Assembly: GCA_021801525.1 (NCBI GenBank)
Contig: JAJYXW010000035.1
Coordinates: 1-37,766, forward strand
Source: Actinomycetes bacterium
GTDB taxonomy: Bacteria > Actinomycetota > Acidimicrobiia > Acidimicrobiales > JAJYXR01
Direction of reading: 5' to 3'
Length of the DNA stretch: 37,766 nucleotides
The notes under the pieces are model-generated. The model ran no database searches. It was given only the letters and a program-made list of their open reading frames with translations, and was not told the origin of the DNA. Positions 20,399 through 31,366 of this stretch are shown in pieces. A program made the translations under genes and the position numbers. Numbering within the stretch: position 1 is the first letter of the stretch; each line of letters opens with the position of its first letter.

Positions 20399-21703
20399 TC
20401 AGCCGTGCGGCACGGGGAAAGGCGGTATGCCCATCGTCGCTGCGTGCGTCATGAGCAAAGAATACGGCGGTGCGAGGTCGACGCCGTCAGGCTTGTAGAG
20501 ATACCCGGGAGCAGATCCCGGCACACCGGTCACGCCGTACTGCCAGACCACCTGGTTGGTCTTCGGGTTCACGACTATGACCCTGTCGTTCCAGTCGTCG
20601 TTCAGCAGGACGTCCCCGTTCGGGAGGGGGAGCGCCAGCGAGGGCTGGTTCAGCGCGGCTGCCCCGGTCGGCGCGTAGCGCCAGAGGAGCTGGCCCGAGG
20701 AGTTGAACTCCTCCACCACACCGGGCTTGGTGTAGGCGGCCGTGAGGAACACGTTGGGCGACACCTCGTTGGTGTCCGACGGGTAGCTGATGCCCGGGGG
20801 GTGGACGGACCAGAGGATCTTGCCGGCAGGTGTCATCTGGTCCACCCAGTCGCCGTTTATCTCCGTTACGAGCCAGTTGCCGTTCGTCATGGGAAACATG
20901 CCGTTCGGGCTGCCGAAGCGGTACGGAGGCTGGTGGTAGCAGTACGGGTCGGTCAGGCCGTATATGTGTACTGGTGCGGGGTCCGAGGGCGACAGGTACA
21001 GCAGCCGGCAGTTCTTTATGTCGGCCGCGATGACGTTGCCGTTCGGAAGCCGCATCGCGTCATCGGGGTTGTCCACGTAGCCCGGTCCCGAGCCCGGGAC
21101 CCCCGGGTGGCCATATCGCCAGGTGATGTGCCCAGTGCGGAGCGAGATCAAGGTTATCGCGAAGTCGGACTCCTGCGTGGCGATGATGTGGCGTCCATGC
21201 GGCCCGAAGAACGCGTCGTCCGGGGAGAGGAAGGTCTGGCCCGGAGCCAGGTCGCCGGCGGCCGGGAACTGCCAGAGGATCCTGCCCTTCGGGTCGACGA
21301 GAAGCAGCCTCGAGTTGTTCCGGTCGGCTATGAGGACGGGGCCCGGCAGCACGCTCGGGTTGGACCCGGGCTGGAGGTGTCCGGGCTGGCCCTTCACCTT
21401 GGACTCGAGGTAGGCAATCCACGCAGACGGGCTCCAGGTCTTGGAGCTCAGCAGGCTGCTCGGAGGAGAGGACGGCGCTGCCCCCGACTTGCCTAGCCGG
21501 CCCGCCGCTGGCAGGGTCGCCTTCCGGCCCACCGCCTGCTCGCGCTTGCCCGAGGGCACTGCCGAGCCCCCGGTGCAGGTGGCCAGCACGATCGCCACGG
21601 CAGCCAGGAACGCCACGAGCGTCACCGAGATCCTCCTGCGCCGGACCGTCGCCCGCCTCCTCGCCCTCGCACTCCGACTCGAGCCTGACGCTGGGCTGTC
21701 CAA
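20399..21703 (-). CDS. Secreted PQQ-like / arylsulfotransferase-type beta-propeller
   Basis: This 434-residue protein has an Arg-rich N-terminus, one hydrophobic export segment (ISVTLVAFLAAVAIVLATC) and a propeller with repeated blade strings: VLIADRNNSRLLLVDPKGRI, NVIAADIKNCRLLYLSP, NWLVTEINGDWVDQMTPAGK and DVLLNDDWNDRVIVVNPKTN. Blade sequence resembles the arylsulfotransferase-like ASST families, whose reaction I cannot assign here. Cys after the export helix (LATC) is a poor lipobox since Thr precedes it. TTG 21703 is chosen because GGAGG lies 9 bases upstream; the frame reaches 21778 with no good site. It precedes the two-component genes by 13 bases and so may modulate that system. Confidence 0.85.
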   Translation of the reverse strand: MDSPASGSSRSARARRRATVRRRRISVTLVAFLAAVAIVLATCTGGSAVPSGKREQAVGRKATLPAAGRLGKSGAAPSSPPSSLLSSKTWSPSAWIAYLESKVKGQPGHLQPGSNPSVLPGPVLIADRNNSRLLLVDPKGRILWQFPAAGDLAPGQTFLSPDDAFFGPHGRHIIATQESDFAITLISLRTGHITWRYGHPGVPGSGPGYVDNPDDAMRLPNGNVIAADIKNCRLLYLSPSDPAPVHIYGLTDPYCYHQPPYRFGSPNGMFPMTNGNWLVTEINGDWVDQMTPAGKILWSVHPPGISYPSDTNEVSPNVFLTAAYTKPGVVEEFNSSGQLLWRYAPTGAAALNQPSLALPLPNGDVLLNDDWNDRVIVVNPKTNQVVWQYGVTGVPGSAPGYLYKPDGVDLAPPYSLLMTHAATMGIPPFPVPHG

Positions 21704-21941
21704 GATGCGTAACCTCCGTCCGAGCTGGCAGGGAACTTCACGCGCATCCACGTGCATCGGAGGGCACGGCGCGCGCAAACGGCAAAGAGGCTACCCGGGC
21801 CGGGCCGGACAGCGGGCGCGCCTGCAAGCCAGCCGCCACAGTGCCCTCACAGCTATGCTCGGCGACGGAGCGCCGGGAAGCCTGGTCGGCCGTACATGCT
21901 GTGAGCGCTGCTCACGCTGCCATAATCCGCGGAGGACCGCC
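21704..21941. promoter_or_regulatory. Divergent region between the propeller gene and nhaA
   Basis: A perfect inverted repeat GTGAGC-GCT-GCTCAC lies at 21901-21915, 26 bases ahead of the nhaA start. It could be a regulator site; a CATAAT at 21921-21926 is too near the ribosome-binding site to be a convincing -10 box. No other gene is seen in these 238 bases. Confidence 0.4.
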
Positions 21942-23219
21942 GTGCCGACCGACCCCGAGATGCCCAGAAGCCGCCGGACACGGTCCTTCCTGGCCGCGTT
22001 CGTTCGGACCGAAGCCGCGGGTGGACTGGCGCTCACTCTGGCGGCTCTCGTTGCGGTCGTCCTCGCAAACAGCCCCTGGCACTCGGGCTTCGCCGCTGTC
22101 TGGGAGCTGCGCGCACCCAGGGCTCTCGGCACGCTGGGCTCGCGCGCTGGTCCGGCCGACCTGCGAGGCTGGGTGAACGACGGCCTGATGAGCGTCTTCT
22201 TCCTCCTGGCGGGCCTCGAGCTCGCCCGCGAACGCTCGGAAGGAGTGCTCCGGCGGCCCCGGGACGCGGCACTCCCGCTCCTCGCAGCCGCGGGTGGGAT
22301 GGCAGGCGCAGCCTGCGTTTACGCGATCGCCACAGCAGGCACCCCCGCTGTGCACGGTTGGGGCGTGCCCACCGCGACCGACATCGCGTTCGCGCTGGGA
22401 GCTCTCGCCCTGCTCGGCCGGCGGGTCCCCCCCGCCCTCCGGGTGTTCGTGCTCACCCTTGCCGTCGCAGACGACATCGGATCGGTGGTGCTCCTCGGCG
22501 CCCTCTACGCCCGCCACGTCGACGTGACGGCACTCGCCGGGGCACTCGGAGCCGTCGCCGCGATGATCGGCGGCCGGTACATCGCTTCGAGCGGCCACGC
22601 CGGTTCTGGCCGCCGCCGACCTTCTGGCCGCCGCCGACCTTCTGGCCGCCGCGAGGCGCTTTCCAAGCGCCTGGGCCTCGCCTCGGTCTGGCCTTACCTC
22701 GCCTTCGGAGTCGTGCTGTGGATCTTCCTCGCGCGAGCAGGCGTCGAGCCCGCCCTCGCAGGCGTTGCCGTGGGGCTCGCCCTCCCCGGCGAGCCAGCCC
22801 GCAGGGAACGGATCGAGTCCGCGCTGCACCCTGTATCGGCCTATTTCGTACTGCCGGTATTCGCGCTCGCCAACGCCGGAGTGGCCTTCGGCGCGCTCGA
22901 CCTCGCCCGTCCCGGAGTGGCGGCGGCCTTGGGCGGCATCCTCGCGGCCAGGGTCGCCGGCAAGCTCGCAGGCATAACGGCTGCGTCCTGGCTCGCCGTG
23001 CGCCTCGGGCTGGCCCGCAAGCCTTCGGAGCTCACGTGGGGAAAGCTGGCCGGAGGCGCCGCTATGGCGGGGATCGGCTTCACCGTGCCGCTCCTCGCTG
23101 CCTCGCTTGCCTTCGCCCGCGCTCCTGACCTGCTCGCGGCCGCCCGAGCCGGCCTGCTCGGCGGCTCGGTGCTCGCGTTCCTCGCCGGAGCCGCCATCCT
23201 CTCTCTCGCCCGCAGATAA
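21942..23219 (+). CDS. nhaA: Na+/H+ antiporter NhaA
   Basis: This 425-residue inner-membrane antiporter exchanges sodium for protons. Family landmarks are ANSPW (42-46), GVPTATDIAFALGALALLG (141-159), the ion-binding Asp pair D177/D178 in LTLAVADDIG, SALHPVSAYFVLPVFALANAGV and GIGFTVPLLAASLAF. A GRRRPSGRRRPSGRR insert, from an 18-base DNA repeat near 22610-22657, lengthens the cytoplasmic loop between helices VI and VII and is strongly positive. GTG 21942 has GGAGG six bases upstream. Two decayed stretches with the same sequence as parts of this gene lie at 30919-31010 and 31279-31366. Confidence 0.94.
   Translation: MPTDPEMPRSRRTRSFLAAFVRTEAAGGLALTLAALVAVVLANSPWHSGFAAVWELRAPRALGTLGSRAGPADLRGWVNDGLMSVFFLLAGLELARERSEGVLRRPRDAALPLLAAAGGMAGAACVYAIATAGTPAVHGWGVPTATDIAFALGALALLGRRVPPALRVFVLTLAVADDIGSVVLLGALYARHVDVTALAGALGAVAAMIGGRYIASSGHAGSGRRRPSGRRRPSGRREALSKRLGLASVWPYLAFGVVLWIFLARAGVEPALAGVAVGLALPGEPARRERIESALHPVSAYFVLPVFALANAGVAFGALDLARPGVAAALGGILAARVAGKLAGITAASWLAVRLGLARKPSELTWGKLAGGAAMAGIGFTVPLLAASLAFARAPDLLAAARAGLLGGSVLAFLAGAAILSLARR
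22610..22657. repeat. 18-base in-frame repeat in nhaA
   Basis: About two and a half copies of TTCTGGCCGCCGCCGACC encode RRRPSG repeats in a cytoplasmic loop of NhaA. The unit preserves frame. Confidence 0.85.
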
Positions 23220-23384
23220 CCTGCGGGCCGCCCGCTCTCGCGCCCGGGATCTCCTCCAGAACGCGATCCGCAGCGCCGTTCGCCGGCGTTACATGGGCGA
23301 AAACCCGAGCGTGCTCACCCGGTCCAGACGCCCTACACGACGAGCGAGCGCGCAATCGAACCCCGTGCGCGCCACCTCCTACGC
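23220..23384. other. Gap between convergent nhaA and secreted-protein genes
   Basis: These 165 bases separate the nhaA stop from the stop of the minus-strand secreted gene. I see no hairpin with a T-run. The first ~45 bases are shared with the nhaA-like remnant at 30919-31010. Confidence 0.4.
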
Positions 23385-24149
23385 TCACGGCAGGCAGCGA
23401 CTCGAAACACACGGTCCATGACGCGGTGGCTGGCTCGTCGTCGTGGTTGTAGGAGGTCGCGGGCCGGTCGTCGTAGTTGTAGGAGATGGCTGGCTCGTCG
23501 TCGTGGTTGTCGGAGGTGGAGGGTTATGGCTCACGATGACCGTGAGCGTCCAAGGGGCACCACTAGGCAGGAAGGCTCGAATGACGACAGTTCCGATCTT
23601 CAAGGCGAAATATTCGATCTCCCAGGTGGGAGGGTGGTTTCCCGGACCACCTGACCCTACGCCAGCACCGAGGGAGCAGAGCACGTTGCCATTGGAGAGG
23701 AGCGGCGGATAGACAGAGCCGAAGCTGTCCCCCTCGTAGCGCATCCATATGTCGAGCCCATCGCCCGGCGCAAGGTAGATCGTGACCGCAGGACCCGTCG
23801 TGTCCCAGTTCTTTGCATACACCGTCTGTGGCGAGCTCCCTGCGGGACCACCGCCTGGTCCGGTAGTGACCCAGGCTGGGCACATGTACCCAACACGCAC
23901 TGGCAGGACCCCTACTGGCTTCGACAGGGGCAGGCTGGTGCTCGTAGGAAGGACGGGTTGCCCAGTCGGGTGGGCAACTGCACCTAGGCCAAGCTTCGAG
24001 GGAGCGGGTGCCTGCGGTGTTCGTACGAGGAGGCGTGCAGGGCTGCTCGAGGGGAGATGAGGACGCCCCGCCCCTCCTAGGAGGCTCCCAGCCGCGGCAA
24101 GGCTGCCTACTGCCATCACTATTGGCACGGGCCTGAGCACCCCGCGCAT
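23385..24149 (-). CDS. Secreted protein with Thr/Pro tail (hypothetical)
   Basis: This 254-residue protein has an export signal (PIVMAVGSLAAAGSLL), a Pro/Ser-rich stretch and a globular middle with DGLDIWMRYEGDSFG, SLGAGVGSGG and WEIEYFALKIGTVVIRAFLP. It ends in Pro-Thr runs (PPPPTTTTTSQPSPTTTTT). The tail may be a cell-wall spanning or glycosylated linker. I recognise no family. ATG 24149 follows GGAGGGAG closely; the same leader sequence precedes the propeller gene at 24508. The upstream sequence to 24212 stays in frame, so a longer N-terminus cannot be excluded. It is the last gene of the secreted cluster. Confidence 0.75.
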   Translation of the reverse strand: MRGVLRPVPIVMAVGSLAAAGSLLGGAGRPHLPSSSPARLLVRTPQAPAPSKLGLGAVAHPTGQPVLPTSTSLPLSKPVGVLPVRVGYMCPAWVTTGPGGGPAGSSPQTVYAKNWDTTGPAVTIYLAPGDGLDIWMRYEGDSFGSVYPPLLSNGNVLCSLGAGVGSGGPGNHPPTWEIEYFALKIGTVVIRAFLPSGAPWTLTVIVSHNPPPPTTTTTSQPSPTTTTTGPRPPTTTTTSQPPRHGPCVSSRCLP

Positions 24150-24410
24150 CACATACTCCCTCCGAGCAAGGAAGAGGGCTCGCCTGATTTCCGACAAACG
24201 TGCATCGCACACCTAGGAGTCGTTGATGACGAAGTAGTGCCCGCCGGTCGAGAGCCACTCCAGGCCCTCTACGACGGGAGTGAAGTAGGCGTATTAGGTC
24301 TTCGGCGTGACCACTACCGGCGCCACGAAGTCGAAGGTGAAGTTGTAGCTCCCACCAGGGAACGTGGTCAAGGGGAGGATCGCGTAGCGTCCTTCGTTCG
24401 GCCAGGCGCC
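24132..24410. repeat. 279-base direct repeat, copy A
   Basis: This segment aligns without gaps to 25888-26166 (offset 1756) with about 16 differences by my eye count, roughly 94% identity. It covers the start of one secreted gene, its leader, and the 3' end of a giant-protein paralogue. Confidence 0.95.
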
Positions 24411-24494
24411 GTAGAGCTCGAAGGTGCCGAGATCCGCCGCGTCGAACGAGCCGAAGGATGGGGGACGTAAAATGGCTGCCGCATGTGCGGAAAG
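24213..24494 (-). pseudogene. Broken 3' fragment of a giant-protein paralogue
   Basis: The minus strand encodes GAWPNEGRYAI, FPGGSYNFTFDFVAPVVVTPKT and then a TAA where the giant gene has a Tyr codon. The sequence then continues in frame to VVEGLEWLSTGGHYFVINDS and TAG. The upstream part (LRPPSFGSFDAADLGTFELY) differs from the intact copy, so this is the tail of a diverged paralogue rather than a very recent simple copy. No start codon or promoter is apparent. It lies between two secreted-protein genes. Confidence 0.85.
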
Positions 24495-24507: not shown

Positions 24508-25905
24508 TCACTGGGTCGCGAGGAACGCTTGCGTGGTGGTGCCGTCGTTCTGAGCGAATATCAGGCAAGACGGCCCAGGGGCGCACGATCCACCTTCGAA
24601 TTCCCATGGGGGCGACACGGTCGCGGGCGGCGACAGTTGCGTCCAGGTCGTACCGTCCCACGCCTCGATGAGGCCGACGATTCCATCCGCACCCTGCATA
24701 TAGCCGATAGCGAGGCAGGCAGTCGCACTAGGGCAGGAGATTTCCCTGAGATTCGGCTGATATCCGCTGGAGGTAGACCCGTGGACCGGCATCCACGTTA
24801 TCCCGCTCCAAATAGCACTGAACATGGCCCAGCGCGCGGGACGTTGGTAGCTGCCGGGCGATACCTCGCTCAGGGTGCTGACTGCCATGCAAGAGAGCCG
24901 CGAGGTGCACGAGACACCAAGGAGCCCGCCCACGAGGCCCTGCGGGCTCTGCTCCAGCGACCAGCGGGTCCCGTCCCAGCCGGCATAGAGCGTCCCGGGG
25001 CCACTGCCGTCGAAGCCGACCGCCTGGCAAAACGAGGCGCTCGGGCATGAGACGCTTCTCAGGGAGCCGCCGCCGGCGCTCGAGAGCACCGTGTCGGACC
25101 AGGTCGCGCCGTTCCAGATGGCAGCGAGCGGACGAGTCGGGGCAGAGACGCTCTGGCCTGTCCGGCCCACAACGGAGCAGAAGCTCGTGCTTACGCACGA
25201 GACACCTCGGAGAGAAATGTCCGGGGTCTGTGTCGGCAATCCAAGGGGCGACCACGTGCTCCCATCCCAGAGCGATACGAGCGGCGTGGCGGAGGGAGGC
25301 TGGCAACCTCCTCGTAGTGGGGTACTAGAGGTCGGCGGGGTCGGCGCTGGCACTGCTCCCGAGTCGCAGACCCCACTTGGCTCAACATGTCCGACCGCCA
25401 TGCAGAACCTGGCGCTCGTGCAGGAGATGCCCCGGGGGGAGGCATATGTGACAGAGCCGGTCGCAGAGTCGGTCTTTACCGCTTCAGAAAAAGGACCCGA
25501 GAGTTGCCAGCGTTCGCCGTTCCACACGGCGGTGAATCCGCTGGAGGACGAGTTCGTGGCGGGATCGTAGGACGCGCCAATCACCATACAGAACGTCCTG
25601 CTCACGCACGAAGATCTCACCCCCTCGACCTCCTCTCTTCCCGGGAGGGCAAGAGCCGGCAGCGTGCTGTAGCTCCATCGCCCAGGCTGGGGTGCCAAGG
25701 TGGTTCTCGTCGGGATCGTAGCCAGGATCGTCGTCGGCAGGGGCGGAAGCGTCGCGGTCGTGACCGGCGGCAGGGTGGTTGGTTCCGAGAGGCGAACAGG
25801 GTGAGCGCGCATCTCCGTGCGTCCCGCCGAGGCGAGGAGACTCCCGGCCGAGGCGAGCCCACTGACCACGACGACGATGGCGAGGAACCTGAGCACCTGG
25901 CGCAT
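24508..25905 (-). CDS. Secreted beta-propeller with seven C-x5-C motifs
   Basis: This 465-residue protein has an export signal (FLAIVVVVSGLASAGSLLASAG), a Thr/Pro-rich spacer and seven repeated blades. Each carries a paired cysteine: SCVSRTFCMVIG, SCTSARFCMAVG, SCVSTSFCSVVG, SCPSASFCQAVG, SCTSRLSCMAVS, SCPSATACLAIG and SCAPGPSCLIF. Most blades also have a WNG/WDG-x-W string. The pattern implies a seven-bladed propeller with one disulfide per blade, suited to an oxidising exterior. I do not assign a ligand. ATG 25905 follows GGAGGGAG. The preceding giant gene ends 63 bases upstream on the same strand, so they may be cotranscribed. Confidence 0.82.
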   Translation of the reverse strand: MRQVLRFLAIVVVVSGLASAGSLLASAGRTEMRAHPVRLSEPTTLPPVTTATLPPLPTTILATIPTRTTLAPQPGRWSYSTLPALALPGREEVEGVRSSCVSRTFCMVIGASYDPATNSSSSGFTAVWNGERWQLSGPFSEAVKTDSATGSVTYASPRGISCTSARFCMAVGHVEPSGVCDSGAVPAPTPPTSSTPLRGGCQPPSATPLVSLWDGSTWSPLGLPTQTPDISLRGVSCVSTSFCSVVGRTGQSVSAPTRPLAAIWNGATWSDTVLSSAGGGSLRSVSCPSASFCQAVGFDGSGPGTLYAGWDGTRWSLEQSPQGLVGGLLGVSCTSRLSCMAVSTLSEVSPGSYQRPARWAMFSAIWSGITWMPVHGSTSSGYQPNLREISCPSATACLAIGYMQGADGIVGLIEAWDGTTWTQLSPPATVSPPWEFEGGSCAPGPSCLIFAQNDGTTTQAFLATQ

Positions 25906-26166
25906 CACATACTCCCTCCGAGCAAGGAAGAGAGCTCGCTTGATTTCCGGCAAACGCGCATCGCACACCTAGGAGTCGTTGATGACGAAGTAGTGCCCGC
26001 CGGTCGAGAGCCACTCCAGGCCCTCCACGACGGGGGTGAAGTAGGCGTAGTAGGTCTTCGGCGTGACCACGACCGGCGCCACGAAGTCAAAGGTGAAGTT
26101 GTAGCTCCCACCAGGGAACGTGGTCGAGGTGAGGACCGCGTAGCGCCCTTCGTTCGGCCAAGCGCC
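25888..26166. repeat. 279-base direct repeat, copy B
   Basis: This partner of 24132-24410 comprises the last ~200 bases of the giant gene, the 63-base leader and the first codons of the propeller gene. The shared leader and signal start (VMRxVLR) suggest that a gene end plus the next gene's start moved as one block. Confidence 0.95.
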
Positions 26167-29100
26167 AGCTGGCTCCGAATCGAGCTCGGCGGCCTCGCTG
26201 GAAGAGCCGTCGTAGAGCGGGGAGGCCGGCCCGTCGTGGGCACCTGGGGACGACTCCACGCCGAGGGTGAAGTTCTGAAATGCGGCCCAGGGGACGTTAC
26301 CCGTGTTCACGAACTCGGCAGTAGCAGAATGAAGCTCCAGCCCGGGGAGCGTGCTCCAGGTAGCAGAAGGCGGATTCTGGTTCGTGTTCTCGCCCGCGAA
26401 CGTAGCGGCATAGTAGCCGACGTTAGCTACGAGATATATGGCGTCAGTCGACATCCACGTAATTCCTTCGGCAACAGGGTCGAAGTACTCATAATGGATA
26501 CCGCCAGGAGCGTAGTTTGGCACGGTGAAGGAGAAGCTGAAGAGCGCCACCTGGCCAGGGCGAACTGGCTCCCAGGTATTACCGTCCGTGACATTCTCCG
26601 AGATGAACACACGGTTGTAGCACCCGGGGCTTCCCTGAGCCCAGCTCGTATTGGCAAGTATGCTACAACGATTGCGGGGATTGGAGGTTCCCAGTCTCAC
26701 GACGCCACCCACCGCCCAGGGAAAGTTCCCCGTGTTCGTGATCTCCACGTTTGCGGGAAAGGTAGAACCGAGACCCATAGGCTGGCCGCCGTTGGGGCTC
26801 ACTTCGCTTGTGTAGCTATAAGTGTAGCTCTGGTCCACCCCGGCAACACAAGACTGGCTCACGTTGTCCCAAAGGTACTGCACCCAGATGGCACCTCCGA
26901 GCGCGGGGATGCCCCCGTATGCACAGAGGTCGCCAATCTCATATGCCTGTGAGTCGGGACCGTTCAGAAACCAACCGGTGAATGGATTCGGATCGGTGGC
27001 GGTCTCCGCGTACTCATGGGAGATGATCGTGGTGAAGGCTGCAGCCACCTGATCGCTGTTGCCCTGATAAGGGAGACATCCGTTATTGAATGGTGCGTCC
27101 CCAGGCCAGGGGATGAGCGAAAGCGCGTAGGTATTCCCCCCGTTTACGACGGCGTTATGTGCAGCACAGGCGCTCGGCGTGGCGTCATAGAGCAATGACG
27201 CGGCGTCACCGCCATAGCCTGGGGCGAGCATAACGATGTACTGGGAGTTGTTCAGGTTGTTCGTCGGCCACCCGTTCACCCCGATCGCGTAGCCGACCTC
27301 GGCGCCGACGTCGGCCCAGGTGATCGAGGACGGCGGGGCATTGTTGTCGATGAAGGTGCCAGCGAGGGTTGGGTTGCCGGCCCCGTACTGCGAGAGGATG
27401 TCCTGATAGGCAGATCCCGGGAGGCGCATGATGAGCTGGGTCGCGGCGTAGCCGGTGGTCGGCGTGTCCCCGCCCCAGAAGATGAGGTATACCTCGGGCG
27501 TGACCTCGGGTGCCCCACCATGGCTATACACCCTGTTGCACCAGGAGCTCCCCGCGCAGACCGGTTGGAAGTGTGCGGTCTCCCAGGCGTTGGGCCCGGA
27601 GTTCGGTGCGGTCGCGGCCGGTAGCGCGTAGGTGAAGGCTTTCGTAGGCGAGGGCATAACCGGGGGCGTCGGTGCCGAGGTCATGCCCTCCCCAACGGCG
27701 TTCGTCGCAGAGACCGTGAAGCGGTAGGCGTCGCCGTTGGTGAGCCCGCTCAGTGTCGCTGTTGTTGCCGTCCCTGGGACGATCGTGGTTGCTGCGCCGG
27801 GGTACGTCGTGATGGTGTAGGCGGTGATCGTCGTACCGCCGCTGGAGACAGGTGGGCTCCAGGTGAGCTTCACCGAAGAGTCTCCGGGGGAGGCAGTGAC
27901 TCCCTGGGGGACGCCCGGTACCCATTCAATGGCTGCGGGAGTGGGATCGCAGACGTATCCGGAGGTGGTGCCACCACAGGCCGACCCCGTCGTAGTGCCG
28001 TTCCCGAGCTCGCCGTGGGAGTTGTCCCCCCACGCATAGGCCGTGCCGTTCGACTCGAGCGCGAGGCCGAAGCCGACGCCGGCACTGCCACCGCCCGCGA
28101 TCGCCGAGGTGTCTGTGAGGTCGCTCACGGGCTCGGGTGTCGGATTGCAGCCGCCGCCGCAAGCCGGTCCGGTCGTCGTGCCGTTCCCGAGCTCGCCGAA
28201 GGTATTGTCCCCCCACGCATAGGCCGTGCCGTCCGACTCGAGCGCGAACGCGCTTTCCTGCCCTGCAGCAATCGCGCTCACACCACTGATGCCGCTCACC
28301 GGGGCAGGTGTCGGGTTGCAGTAGCCACCGCAGCTGTTCACTCCGGTCGTGGTGCCGTTCGCGAGCTCGCCGTAGGAGTTGTCCCCCCACGCGTAGGCGT
28401 CACCGTTTGCCCCGAGCGCGAGCGCGAAGTAGTTCCCTGCGGAAACCGCGCTGACCGAGATCCCCGCGAGGCCAGCGACCTCGGTCGGCACCGCGTTCGA
28501 GGAGACTGCGCTCGGAGAGACGCCGAGCTGGCCGAAGGCATTGGACCCCCAGGCCCACACGGTGCCTGCCGCCCCGACCGCGAGCGCAAAGCTGCCGCCT
28601 CCCAGGAAGCCTCCCGCGGATATCGCGCTCACGCCAGTTAGGCCGGTCACCTGGACGGGGCTTGACGCGCAGTCACAACCAAGGGGATCGACGACCGCAC
28701 CCGGGCCGAGCTCGCCCGAGCCATCCGATCCCCAGGCGTAGACGTTCCCATTCGACTCGAGAGCGAGAGCGAAACCCGAATCACCGCTACCGGACGCTGA
28801 TACCGCGTTGGTCCCACCCGCGGAGATGGCGACAATCCCCGAGAGCCCTGGGATCTTCGCGGGTGTCGGGTTGCAGTATGAATTGCCGCCCGCGCAGGAA
28901 CTCGAGGCAGCGTTTCCCACACCGAGCTCGTCCGAGCCATCCGATCCCCAGCCGTAGACGCTGCCATCCGAGCGAAGCACCAAGCCGAAGTTTGCCCCAG
29001 TGGAGACGGCGGTCGCGACGTAGCTGAGAACGACTCCGTTGGACTGTGCCGAGGGTGGGCTCGTCCCGCCGGCCCCGGGATCGCTTTGCGTCGTGTTCGA

Positions 29101-30810
29101 AGCGGTGACGCTGAAGGTGTAGCCCTGGCCGTTTTGGAGACCCGTGACGGTCGCGGAGCTCGTCGGAGCATCCACCGTGGTCGTCTGCCCACCAGGGAAT
29201 GCGCTCACGGTGTAGGTCGTGACAGGCATGCCACCATCATCGCCCGGGGGACTCCACGACACCCTCGCCGAGGTTGGTCCCGCAGCGGAAGCACTTACGT
29301 TGGTCGGCGATCCAGGTGGCGCAGCGGGCGTAACGGCATTCGACTGGGGAGACGTCGTGCTCGAGCGGATCGAGCTCACCGCGGTCACGCTGAAGGTGTA
29401 GCTGGTGCCGTTCGTGAGACTGGGAAGGGTCGCAGAGGTGCTCGTGCCTCCGACACTTCTTTGTGCCCCACCAGGGCTTGCGGTGACGATGTAGGCGACG
29501 ATCGGGAACTTACCGAGCGGCGGAACCGCTTGCCAGGTGACCGTTGCCTCGGCGTCTCCTGCGGTCGCATGCGGTGCCGAAGGAGCAGCCGGGCTTAGCG
29601 GCAGGTCGAGGCTGGGCGTAGTGATCGGGGCAGCTATCACCACCTCGACAGGAACGTCGCTACCGGAGGAGGAGGCGTCGCCCAGCTGGCCGTAAGTGTT
29701 GTCCCCCCAGGCCCATAGAGTCCCGTCGGAGCCGACCGCATAGGAGTCCGCACTAGATGCGGCAAGGCCCATGACGCCGCTCGGGCCAGATACGCTCACC
29801 GGGGTAGAGGAGCTCGTCGTCGTGGCATTCCCGAGCTGGCCAGAGGAGTTTTCCCCCCAGGCATAGACGCTCCCCGAGGAAACAGCGAGGGAGTGCTCAC
29901 TGCCGGCCGCGATCTCTGTCACGTTCGCGAGGCTCGTCACTTGGACCGGGATAGAGGAGCTCGTCGTCGTGGCATTCCCGAGCTGCCCGTAGGCGTTGTC
30001 ACCCCAGGCATATACATTGCCGTTTCTCAGTGCGAGCGCGTGAGTGCCGCCGGCAGCTATCGCGTTCACCCCCGAGAGCCCGCTCACCTCGACCGGACTC
30101 GGCGAGTCTAGTGGGGTCGTGCCGTTCCCAAGCTCGCCGTCCATGCCATATCCCCAGGCGTAGACCTGGCCAGCCTGGCTCAGCGCGATCGCGAAGTCCG
30201 CGCCGGCTGCTATCGCCTTTATGGAGGGAAGCCCGCTTACCTGCTCGGGAGTTGCGTCGTTGCTGGTGGTGCCGTTCCCGAGCTGGCCAAGGGTGTTTTG
30301 CCCCCACGCCCAGACGCTTCCGTTCGACTCGAGCGCGACGCCAAAGGCTTGACCTGCTGCTATCGCGCTCACACCAGAGAGCCCGGGAACCTCGACCGGG
30401 ACATCGCTATAGGTGGGCGTCGTTGCACCAAGGATGCCAAAGGAGTTCTCTCCCCAGGCGTAAACAGCCCCAGTGGAGGACAGCGCAAGCGAAGAGTAGC
30501 TGCCCTCGGCAAGCCCCGAGAGGTTGCTCACGCCCGAGACGCTGACCGGGGTGGCGCTCCCGTAGCCATGCGTGGCGTTCCCGAGCTGGCCATAGCCGTC
30601 ACGGCCCCAGGCGAGGAGCGAGCCGCCTGGCTCGGCGTAGAGGGCCGAAGCTCCGCCAGCCGCGAGGAGGGGAGAGACAGTGCTGGTTGTAGTGGCGCCT
30701 GCGGGCACCTCGGCTTGGAGAAGGCCTGCGAAGAGGCCCAGGCAACCGCCCACGAGCACTACACGCCTTGCGCCGGAAAACCTTCTAGCACGAACTCGCC
30801 ATGGGGACAT
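25969..30810 (-). CDS. Giant secreted RCC1/Fn3 multidomain surface protein
   Basis: This 1613-residue protein starts with an export helix (VVLVGGCLGLFAGLLQA). Residues about 37-390 form a propeller of seven RCC1-type repeats (AWGDNxYGQLGN). Two Fn3 domains follow (about 397-587), then a six-repeat RCC1 block (about 587-950) and a third Fn3 (about 950-1045). Next, 1053-1327 has YLIFWGGDTPTTGYAATQ, SQYIVMLAPGYGGD and ISHEYAETATDPNPF, giving HExxE (H1265, E1266, E1269), which recalls EXORDIUM-like or metallopeptidase-type folds. Two NBR1-like beta domains end the chain (NTGNFPWAVGG; NTGNVPWAAF). ATG 30810 follows AGGCGG 8 bases upstream, better than GTG 30867. The role is unknown; adhesion or binding to polymers is a guess. 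Confidence 0.88.
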   Translation of the reverse strand: MSPWRVRARRFSGARRVVLVGGCLGLFAGLLQAEVPAGATTTSTVSPLLAAGGASALYAEPGGSLLAWGRDGYGQLGNATHGYGSATPVSVSGVSNLSGLAEGSYSSLALSSTGAVYAWGENSFGILGATTPTYSDVPVEVPGLSGVSAIAAGQAFGVALESNGSVWAWGQNTLGQLGNGTTSNDATPEQVSGLPSIKAIAAGADFAIALSQAGQVYAWGYGMDGELGNGTTPLDSPSPVEVSGLSGVNAIAAGGTHALALRNGNVYAWGDNAYGQLGNATTTSSSIPVQVTSLANVTEIAAGSEHSLAVSSGSVYAWGENSSGQLGNATTTSSSTPVSVSGPSGVMGLAASSADSYAVGSDGTLWAWGDNTYGQLGDASSSGSDVPVEVVIAAPITTPSLDLPLSPAAPSAPHATAGDAEATVTWQAVPPLGKFPIVAYIVTASPGGAQRSVGGTSTSATLPSLTNGTSYTFSVTAVSSIRSSTTSPQSNAVTPAAPPGSPTNVSASAAGPTSARVSWSPPGDDGGMPVTTYTVSAFPGGQTTTVDAPTSSATVTGLQNGQGYTFSVTASNTTQSDPGAGGTSPPSAQSNGVVLSYVATAVSTGANFGLVLRSDGSVYGWGSDGSDELGVGNAASSSCAGGNSYCNPTPAKIPGLSGIVAISAGGTNAVSASGSGDSGFALALESNGNVYAWGSDGSGELGPGAVVDPLGCDCASSPVQVTGLTGVSAISAGGFLGGGSFALAVGAAGTVWAWGSNAFGQLGVSPSAVSSNAVPTEVAGLAGISVSAVSAGNYFALALGANGDAYAWGDNSYGELANGTTTGVNSCGGYCNPTPAPVSGISGVSAIAAGQESAFALESDGTAYAWGDNTFGELGNGTTTGPACGGGCNPTPEPVSDLTDTSAIAGGGSAGVGFGLALESNGTAYAWGDNSHGELGNGTTTGSACGGTTSGYVCDPTPAAIEWVPGVPQGVTASPGDSSVKLTWSPPVSSGGTTITAYTITTYPGAATTIVPGTATTATLSGLTNGDAYRFTVSATNAVGEGMTSAPTPPVMPSPTKAFTYALPAATAPNSGPNAWETAHFQPVCAGSSWCNRVYSHGGAPEVTPEVYLIFWGGDTPTTGYAATQLIMRLPGSAYQDILSQYGAGNPTLAGTFIDNNAPPSSITWADVGAEVGYAIGVNGWPTNNLNNSQYIVMLAPGYGGDAASLLYDATPSACAAHNAVVNGGNTYALSLIPWPGDAPFNNGCLPYQGNSDQVAAAFTTIISHEYAETATDPNPFTGWFLNGPDSQAYEIGDLCAYGGIPALGGAIWVQYLWDNVSQSCVAGVDQSYTYSYTSEVSPNGGQPMGLGSTFPANVEITNTGNFPWAVGGVVRLGTSNPRNRCSILANTSWAQGSPGCYNRVFISENVTDGNTWEPVRPGQVALFSFSFTVPNYAPGGIHYEYFDPVAEGITWMSTDAIYLVANVGYYAATFAGENTNQNPPSATWSTLPGLELHSATAEFVNTGNVPWAAFQNFTLGVESSPGAHDGPASPLYDGSSSEAAELDSEPAGAWPNEGRYAVLTSTTFPGGSYNFTFDFVAPVVVTPKTYYAYFTPVVEGLEWLSTGGHYFVINDS

Positions 30811-30918
30811 GAGCCGAACCGCCTTTCGCCTTCGGCCCCCCTTGGCACCGCCGTGGCTCCCCACCACGATCTGGGCACATTATGCGGTAGACCGGGCACG
30901 TTGTAAAGGGGCGCCTGG

Positions 30919-31010
30919 CTGCTCGCGTTCCTCGCCGGAGCCGCCATCCTCTCCCTCACGCGCAGATGACCTGCGGGCCGCGCCGCTCCCGCGCAACGGG
31001 ATCTCCTCCA
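30919..31010 (+). pseudogene. nhaA 3'-end remnant
   Basis: This stretch matches the end of nhaA and the bases just past its stop codon almost exactly. It encodes LLAFLAGAAILSLTRR and then TGA. An in-frame TAA lies just before it and the rest of the gene is absent. The shared region runs on for about 40 bases beyond the stop. Confidence 0.9.
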
Positions 31011-31278
31011 CCACGAGATCGAGGAAGCAGCCCGCCGCTTCGAGCAGCTCGCCGATGAGCTGGACCCCGCTAGCGCCGAGGCCGAAGACACCTCGGACCT
31101 CAGAGCAATCGCAGCCGCCTCGGAAGCCGCTCGGGCAGACGAGGCCTTGCTCCGGGAGGCCGTTCACGTAGCCCGAGCTCACGGCCGATCCTGGAACCAG
31201 ATCGCCGTTTCCCTAGGCGTGTCCAGGCAGGCAGCCCGCCAGAGGTTCGCTCAGCAGGAGACGGGCGCTGTCCCGTGA
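30970..31278 (+). pseudogene. Start-less helix-turn-helix ORF
   Basis: An open frame of 102 codons runs from just after the TGA of the nhaA remnant to TGA 31276-31278. It encodes EIEEAARRFEQLADELDP, then REAVHVARAHGRSWNQIAVS and LGVSRQAARQRFAQQE, a helix-turn-helix of the kind seen in small actinobacterial regulators. There is no ATG or GTG start before the helix-turn-helix; an ATG at 30966 is in another frame. It is probably a truncated or frameshifted gene, unless a rare start is used. Confidence 0.7.
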
Positions 31279-31366
31279 ATCGAGTCCGCGCTGCACCCTG
31301 TCTACTCCTATTTCGTGCTGCCGAGATTCACGCTTCTGAACGCGGGCGTAGCGCTCAGCGCGCTCA
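31279..31366 (+). pseudogene. nhaA internal remnant
   Basis: The sequence matches nhaA about 22813-22900, encoding IESALHPVYSYFVLPRFTLLNAGVALSALN against IESALHPVSAYFVLPVFALANAGVAFGALD (shown in parts only). The first 23 bases are identical. It abuts the stop codon of the ABC permease and follows the helix-turn-helix ORF directly, with nhaA segments out of their normal order. Confidence 0.85.

Follow-up and report, generated by a model that had tools for sequence, protein, structure and literature searches.

A probably secreted RCC1 and Fn3 protein of an acidimicrobial genome with a putative zincin-like domain related to EXORDIUM

In plants, EXO and EXL proteins act in cell expansion and in growth linked to brassinosteroids, and their biochemical function has been described as unknown (PMC13103426, PMC2661892, PMC3691544); the 2009 description of the family contained a single bacterial EXORDIUM homologue (PMC2661892). 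A search of one literature collection yielded no paper tying EXORDIUM to zincins or metallopeptidases, nor any describing a HExxE zincin. The metzincins, which include the adamalysin/reprolysin (M12B) and matrixin (M10) enzymes, carry the motif HExxHxxGxxH, and BLIP-II, a secreted RCC1 propeller, binds a protein. The gene described here lies in a window of 37,766 nt (the whole stretch of DNA that was analysed) and encodes a protein of 1613 residues, P0001, with the module order RCC1-Fn3-Fn3-RCC1-Fn3-EXO-Ig-Ig.

Layout of the gene and its surroundings

The P0001 gene occupies positions 25969–30810 on the minus strand as a complete frame without internal stop, read from an ATG at 30810 to a stop codon at 25969–25971, in agreement with the first-pass annotation, which had left the strand unstated. 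An alternative upstream GTG at 30867 would make the protein 19 residues longer. Residues 1–40 (30691–30810, minus strand) probably form a signal peptide, read by eye from a basic n-region (RVRARRFSGARR), a hydrophobic stretch (VVLVGGCLGLFAGLLQ) and AGA before TTT, and the same by-eye reading revealed neither a sortase motif nor a C-terminal membrane helix. The NCBIfam models gave no match to the whole protein, while Pfam detected 13 RCC1 stretches (RCC1/RCC1_2, E=6e-113) and three fn3 stretches (E=1e-38), all above cut-off. The RCC1 blades fall into groups of seven (residues 66–377) and six (residues 619–936), and the two propellers and three Fn3 domains counted from the sequence at first reading are confirmed. 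All lie on the minus strand, with propeller 1 (seven repeats, residues about 47–393, 29632–30672) followed by two Fn3 domains (residues about 404–596, 29023–29601), propeller 2 (six repeats with Cys-bearing loops, residues about 598–962, 27925–29019) and the third Fn3 domain (residues about 965–1053, 27652–27918); the Fn3 domains also matched PDB entries. Among solved structures, a PDB sequence search matched the propellers best to UVR8, HERC2, RCC1 and BLIP-II, the last being an inhibitor secreted by bacteria. P0001 and BLIP-II (sequence match E=1e-29) have in common an RCC1-type seven-bladed propeller in a secreted or probably secreted bacterial protein, but BLIP-II is a single free propeller, whereas P0001 has two, fused to Fn3 domains and an EXO-like domain; no evidence was found for beta-lactamase binding by P0001. 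Among the proteins of its genome, RCC1_2 matches were confined to P0001.

The gene is part of a block of lower GC content (0.61–0.68, at 23–31 kb) compared with flanks of mostly 0.70–0.74, and the block also holds a downstream gene for a repeat protein (24508–25968) and a third small gene. The downstream product, encoded immediately adjacent on the minus strand, has 486 aa, looks secreted and consists of SCxSxxFCxAVG repeats without a Pfam family, and a protein with this type of repeat together with Fn3 is encoded elsewhere in the same genome. An intact nhaA gene is located on one side of the block (21441–23219), with displaced nhaA fragments on the other side (30910–31020 and 31279–31365). 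These correspond to the 3′ end of nhaA (23160–23268 vs 30910–31020, 87%) and to a middle piece (22812–22898 vs 31279–31365, 79%), and they are in permuted order, with a small HTH-like reading frame (WNQIAVSLGVSRQAARQRFA) between them. The nhaA fragments and the lower GC content suggest that this is an island that may have been rearranged, inserted or acquired. A 336-bp direct repeat (89%) is formed by 24079–24410 and 25835–26166, the latter covering the end of the P0001 gene and the start of the next gene. Within this repeat region is an orphan copy of residues 1537–1613 (24216–24449, minus strand; 86% identical, with an internal TAA), and the downstream copy is a decayed fragment.

Relationship of the internal domain to Phi_1 and EXORDIUM

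The region between the third Fn3 domain and the C-terminal pair contains an EXORDIUM-like, putatively zincin-like domain (residues about 1090–1326, 26833–27543, minus strand), delimited by homologues, a link to Phi_1, an AlphaFold2 model and metzincin fold matches. No Pfam model matched residues 1054–1328 even at E≤10, Phi_1 (PF04674) included, and the domain is thus outside Phi_1 as strictly defined by the Pfam cut-off. Bacterial relatives that do match Phi_1 (E 1.8e-36 to 4.7e-25) nevertheless align with the P0001 domain over its full length, and comparison of the two families by hhalign gave a probability of 99.8 (E=4.7e-28, 232 columns), with the window-side alignment made up of members that, scanned individually, had no Phi_1 match over the cut-off, and the other alignment consisting of clear Phi_1 members. 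From this profile-profile match we conclude that the window domain and the Phi_1/EXORDIUM proteins share ancestry and belong to one superfamily. The resemblance to EXORDIUM proposed in the first-pass annotation from a short string therefore holds domain-wide, and a domain search on residues 1054–1328 did not turn the region into an ordinary known family, since no Pfam family covers it and the superfamily itself lacks a settled role. Landmarks common to the window domain and the bacterial Phi_1-positive members are CxxH, HExxE..TDP, a W and ExxDxC. The family likeness may extend to secretion, for which P0001 has its signal-like N-terminus, read by eye; plant EXORDIUM members, in contrast, have about 300 residues that are almost all Phi_1 (PMC2661892), whereas the window domain is embedded in a multidomain protein of 1613 aa.

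Five other proteins with an EXO-like domain, all from secreted-looking ORFs, were found in 296 genomes of the class, one of which matched Phi_1, and two further Phi_1 hits came from the phylum. One scan of genome contigs gave 39 relatives, with hosts among the Acidimicrobiales, other Actinobacteria, Acidobacteria, Chloroflexi, Proteobacteria and Myxococcales, and five more were present on viral-collection contigs (L012–L016), where two pairs give the same match. Among these, L014/L015 belongs clearly to Phi_1 (L014 E=1.8e-36). Across 396 phylum genomes, a profile built from 41 rows detected the domain in 19, with up to six matches per genome. No relatives were found on the plasmids searched, and one other genome of the family to which the P0001 host belongs had neither an EXO-like domain nor RCC1_2. 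Adjacent EXO-like paralogues on the same contig were observed in Myxococcales and Thermoleophilia MAGs (L031, L037 and L041).

Most relatives are single-domain proteins or have C-terminal PKD, Fn3, IPT-like or Ig-like modules, which are usual accessories of extracellular enzymes, and RCC1 was absent from all relatives that were read. The closest EXO-like domain found (38% identity) is in L017, from an Acidimicrobiales MAG (DAIDIS010000148.1), and is likewise joined to a beta-propeller-like repeat array; this array is C-terminal and consists of GYWLVASDGGIFAFGDA repeats, as opposed to RCC1 in P0001, and the N-terminus of L017 is cut by the contig end. The module order of P0001, which had not been recognised at first reading, accordingly has no RCC1-bearing counterpart among the relatives read here, and appears to be a novel arrangement within an established superfamily.

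Putative active site and predicted fold

The single HExxE of P0001 is the HEYAE motif at residues 1265–1269 (27004–27018, minus strand), within the string SHEYAETATDP that starts at residue 1264. It is accompanied by an upstream histidine, H1218 of C1215-x-x-H1218 (27157–27159, minus strand), which is invariant in 41/41 and 36/36 alignment rows, and by an invariant acidic pair and cysteine downstream, E1291-x-x-D1294-x-C1296 (26923–26940, minus strand). In the 41-row alignment H1218, H1265, E1266, E1269, D1273, E1291 and D1294 are invariant, with 41/41 rows for the six non-Cys site positions; these rows were partly picked by a pattern with HE[YL]AE, so that conservation of HExxE there is by construction, while H1218, E1291 and D1294 are outside the selection pattern. 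A profile trained on the 41 rows was then used on 396 phylum genomes without requiring HExxE, and H1218, H1265, E1266, E1269, E1291, D1294 and C1296 were identical in 36/36 covering rows, a set which includes loci of the other searches (class, Phi_1) and a few duplicates. The combined site signature was not recovered once in 200,000 shuffles of the domain. Of six further proteins found in other genomes by the Phi_1 model, five keep HExxE and the sixth, the Phi_1-positive bacterial protein L098, has HELDG in its place, a possible natural inactive variant. Plant EXO is not known to carry HExxE.

AlphaFold2 gave a confident model of the domain from 41 sequences (pLDDT 84.9, pTM 0.86), with a core of alternating strands and helices, after which a long helix (model residues 183–203) carries the motif close to its end. 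When this model was compared with the PDB by Foldseek, places 1–13 were all taken by adamalysin-type metzincins (ADAM33, ADAM8 and snake-venom enzymes), at weak scores (E 6e-4 to 2e-3, probability 0.95–1.00, TM 0.28–0.43, rmsd 5–8 Å) that place the predicted match at superfamily level at best. A zincin-like core would fit this result, short of proof. The metzincins and the window domain both have a helix-borne HE motif, but the former continue as HExxHxxGxxH, while the window domain has HExxE and a TM of 0.3–0.4; the metzincin motif HExxHxxGxxH/D is absent from the window domain, with Glu at the position of the second His in all covering rows. The Pfam peptidase models gave no sequence match to the domain, a PDB sequence search with its profile gave chance matches alone (e.g. 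YopH fragments, E=0.09), a PDB search with the Phi_1-positive profile gave no match, leaving the family with no solved structure recognisable by sequence, and no viral model matched the domain model below E=0.001 in Foldseek. The earlier guess at a metallopeptidase thus gains an invariant HExxE-centred site and metzincins as the nearest solved folds, and is weakened by HExxE in place of HExxH and by the low quality of the fold match.

C-terminal domains and proposed function

The last 286 residues of P0001 form two repeats with an NTGNxPW signature (residues 1328–1464 and 1465–1613, 25972–26829, minus strand), which are 31% identical to each other and for which AlphaFold2 gave a pLDDT of 36 from the single sequence. 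They had been labelled NBR1-like, a label that did not stand, as PF16158 (N_BRCA1_IG) matched neither P0001 nor its C-terminus, gave no match at E≤1 across its genome, and reached one C-terminal-domain relative only below the cut-off (E=0.05–0.09). The NBR1 FW domain has a similar NTGNxPW-type signature, but the window domains lack a profile match, and the NBR1 reading was rejected as unsupported. A profile from the four known copies of the NTGNxPW domain matched one other genome (G174) among 395 of the class, where each of two HEWGHxLGLGH-containing proteins is followed by a tandem pair; Pfam Peptidase_M10 matched the one that was scanned, at E=2e-11. These two proteins (L057 and L109) are neighbours and both look secreted. 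These matrixin-type proteins and P0001 have accessory pairs of one kind at the C-terminus, apparently an as yet unnamed module of extracellular proteases that may be NBR1-FW-like distantly at best. As both NTGNxPW contexts appear to be secreted and metalloprotease-like, they would favour a zincin-like interpretation of the window domain, from a small sample.

We favour, at a little above an even chance, the interpretation that P0001 is a modular, secreted hydrolase of zincin-like type, most probably a metallopeptidase, whose catalytic domain falls among the bacterial members of the EXORDIUM/Phi_1 superfamily. Computed are the Phi_1 homology, the site invariance, the weak metzincin-like predicted fold and the C-terminal sharing with matrixin-type proteases; the metal, catalysis, substrate and location of P0001 we infer. 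The protein would be exported through its signal peptide, and the two RCC1 propellers, on Fn3 spacers or arms, would hold a macromolecular target. H1265 and E1269, with one or more of H1218, E1291 and D1294, may serve as metal ligands and E1266 as the general base, allowing the EXO-like domain to cleave the bound protein or peptide. The EXO-like domain may also be stabilised by disulphide bonds, for example C1296–C1321, and the C-terminal pair may provide accessory binding, anchoring or substrate presentation.

The main competing explanation, which we consider unlikely but well short of negligible, is that the EXO-like domain is a non-catalytic, metal-stabilised binding module and that P0001 serves above all as an adhesin or polymer-binding scaffold at the surface, as binding-type repeats make up most of the protein, the second zinc-binding His of zincins is Glu throughout the family, and plant EXORDIUM has no known enzymatic activity (PMC13103426). 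However, E1266, which corresponds to the general base of zincins, is invariant along with six other site residues and would not be needed in a purely structural site, and the C-terminal modules are common to true matrixin-type proteases. An adhesin role is possible for the flanking modules. It is less probable again that the domain is a metal-dependent hydrolase of polysaccharide, or of ester or amide bonds in cell-wall material, rather than of proteins, for which the cell-wall location of plant EXORDIUM offers a parallel, with EXO and EXL being apoplastic and affecting cell expansion (PMC2661892; PMC13103426), and one relative (L083) having an apparent bulb-lectin domain, read by eye; the best fold matches are peptidases, however, and it is peptidases that the shared C-terminal domains follow elsewhere. 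A toxin-like effector against other cells, as once suggested, would fit a large secreted repeat protein with one distinct domain in its C-terminal half but is very improbable, as Pfam and NCBIfam found no toxin or trafficking domain in P0001, no immunity-like gene was seen among the genes examined (the downstream gene encodes a secreted-looking repeat protein rather than a small immunity protein), and the domain is internal, with mostly Ig/PKD-type modules after it in the relatives instead of a variable C-terminal cassette.

For the superfamily as a whole, we tentatively propose, as a plausible view with somewhat less than an even chance, that EXORDIUM arose from secreted zincin-type metallopeptidases with an unusual H-E-x-x-E metal site, in which bacterial members would be active and plant members derived, perhaps as pseudo-peptidases. 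The EXO-like family, represented by one bacterium in 2009, is now seen in 19/396 genomes of a single phylum as well as in several others. If the proposed descent is true, it would show to which class of proteins EXORDIUM belongs. The conserved HExxE-centred site, together with the metzincin-like predicted fold, provides a concrete chemical hypothesis for plant EXORDIUM, and the question of its function becomes testable through metal binding and protein cleavage by the bacterial EXO-like domain.
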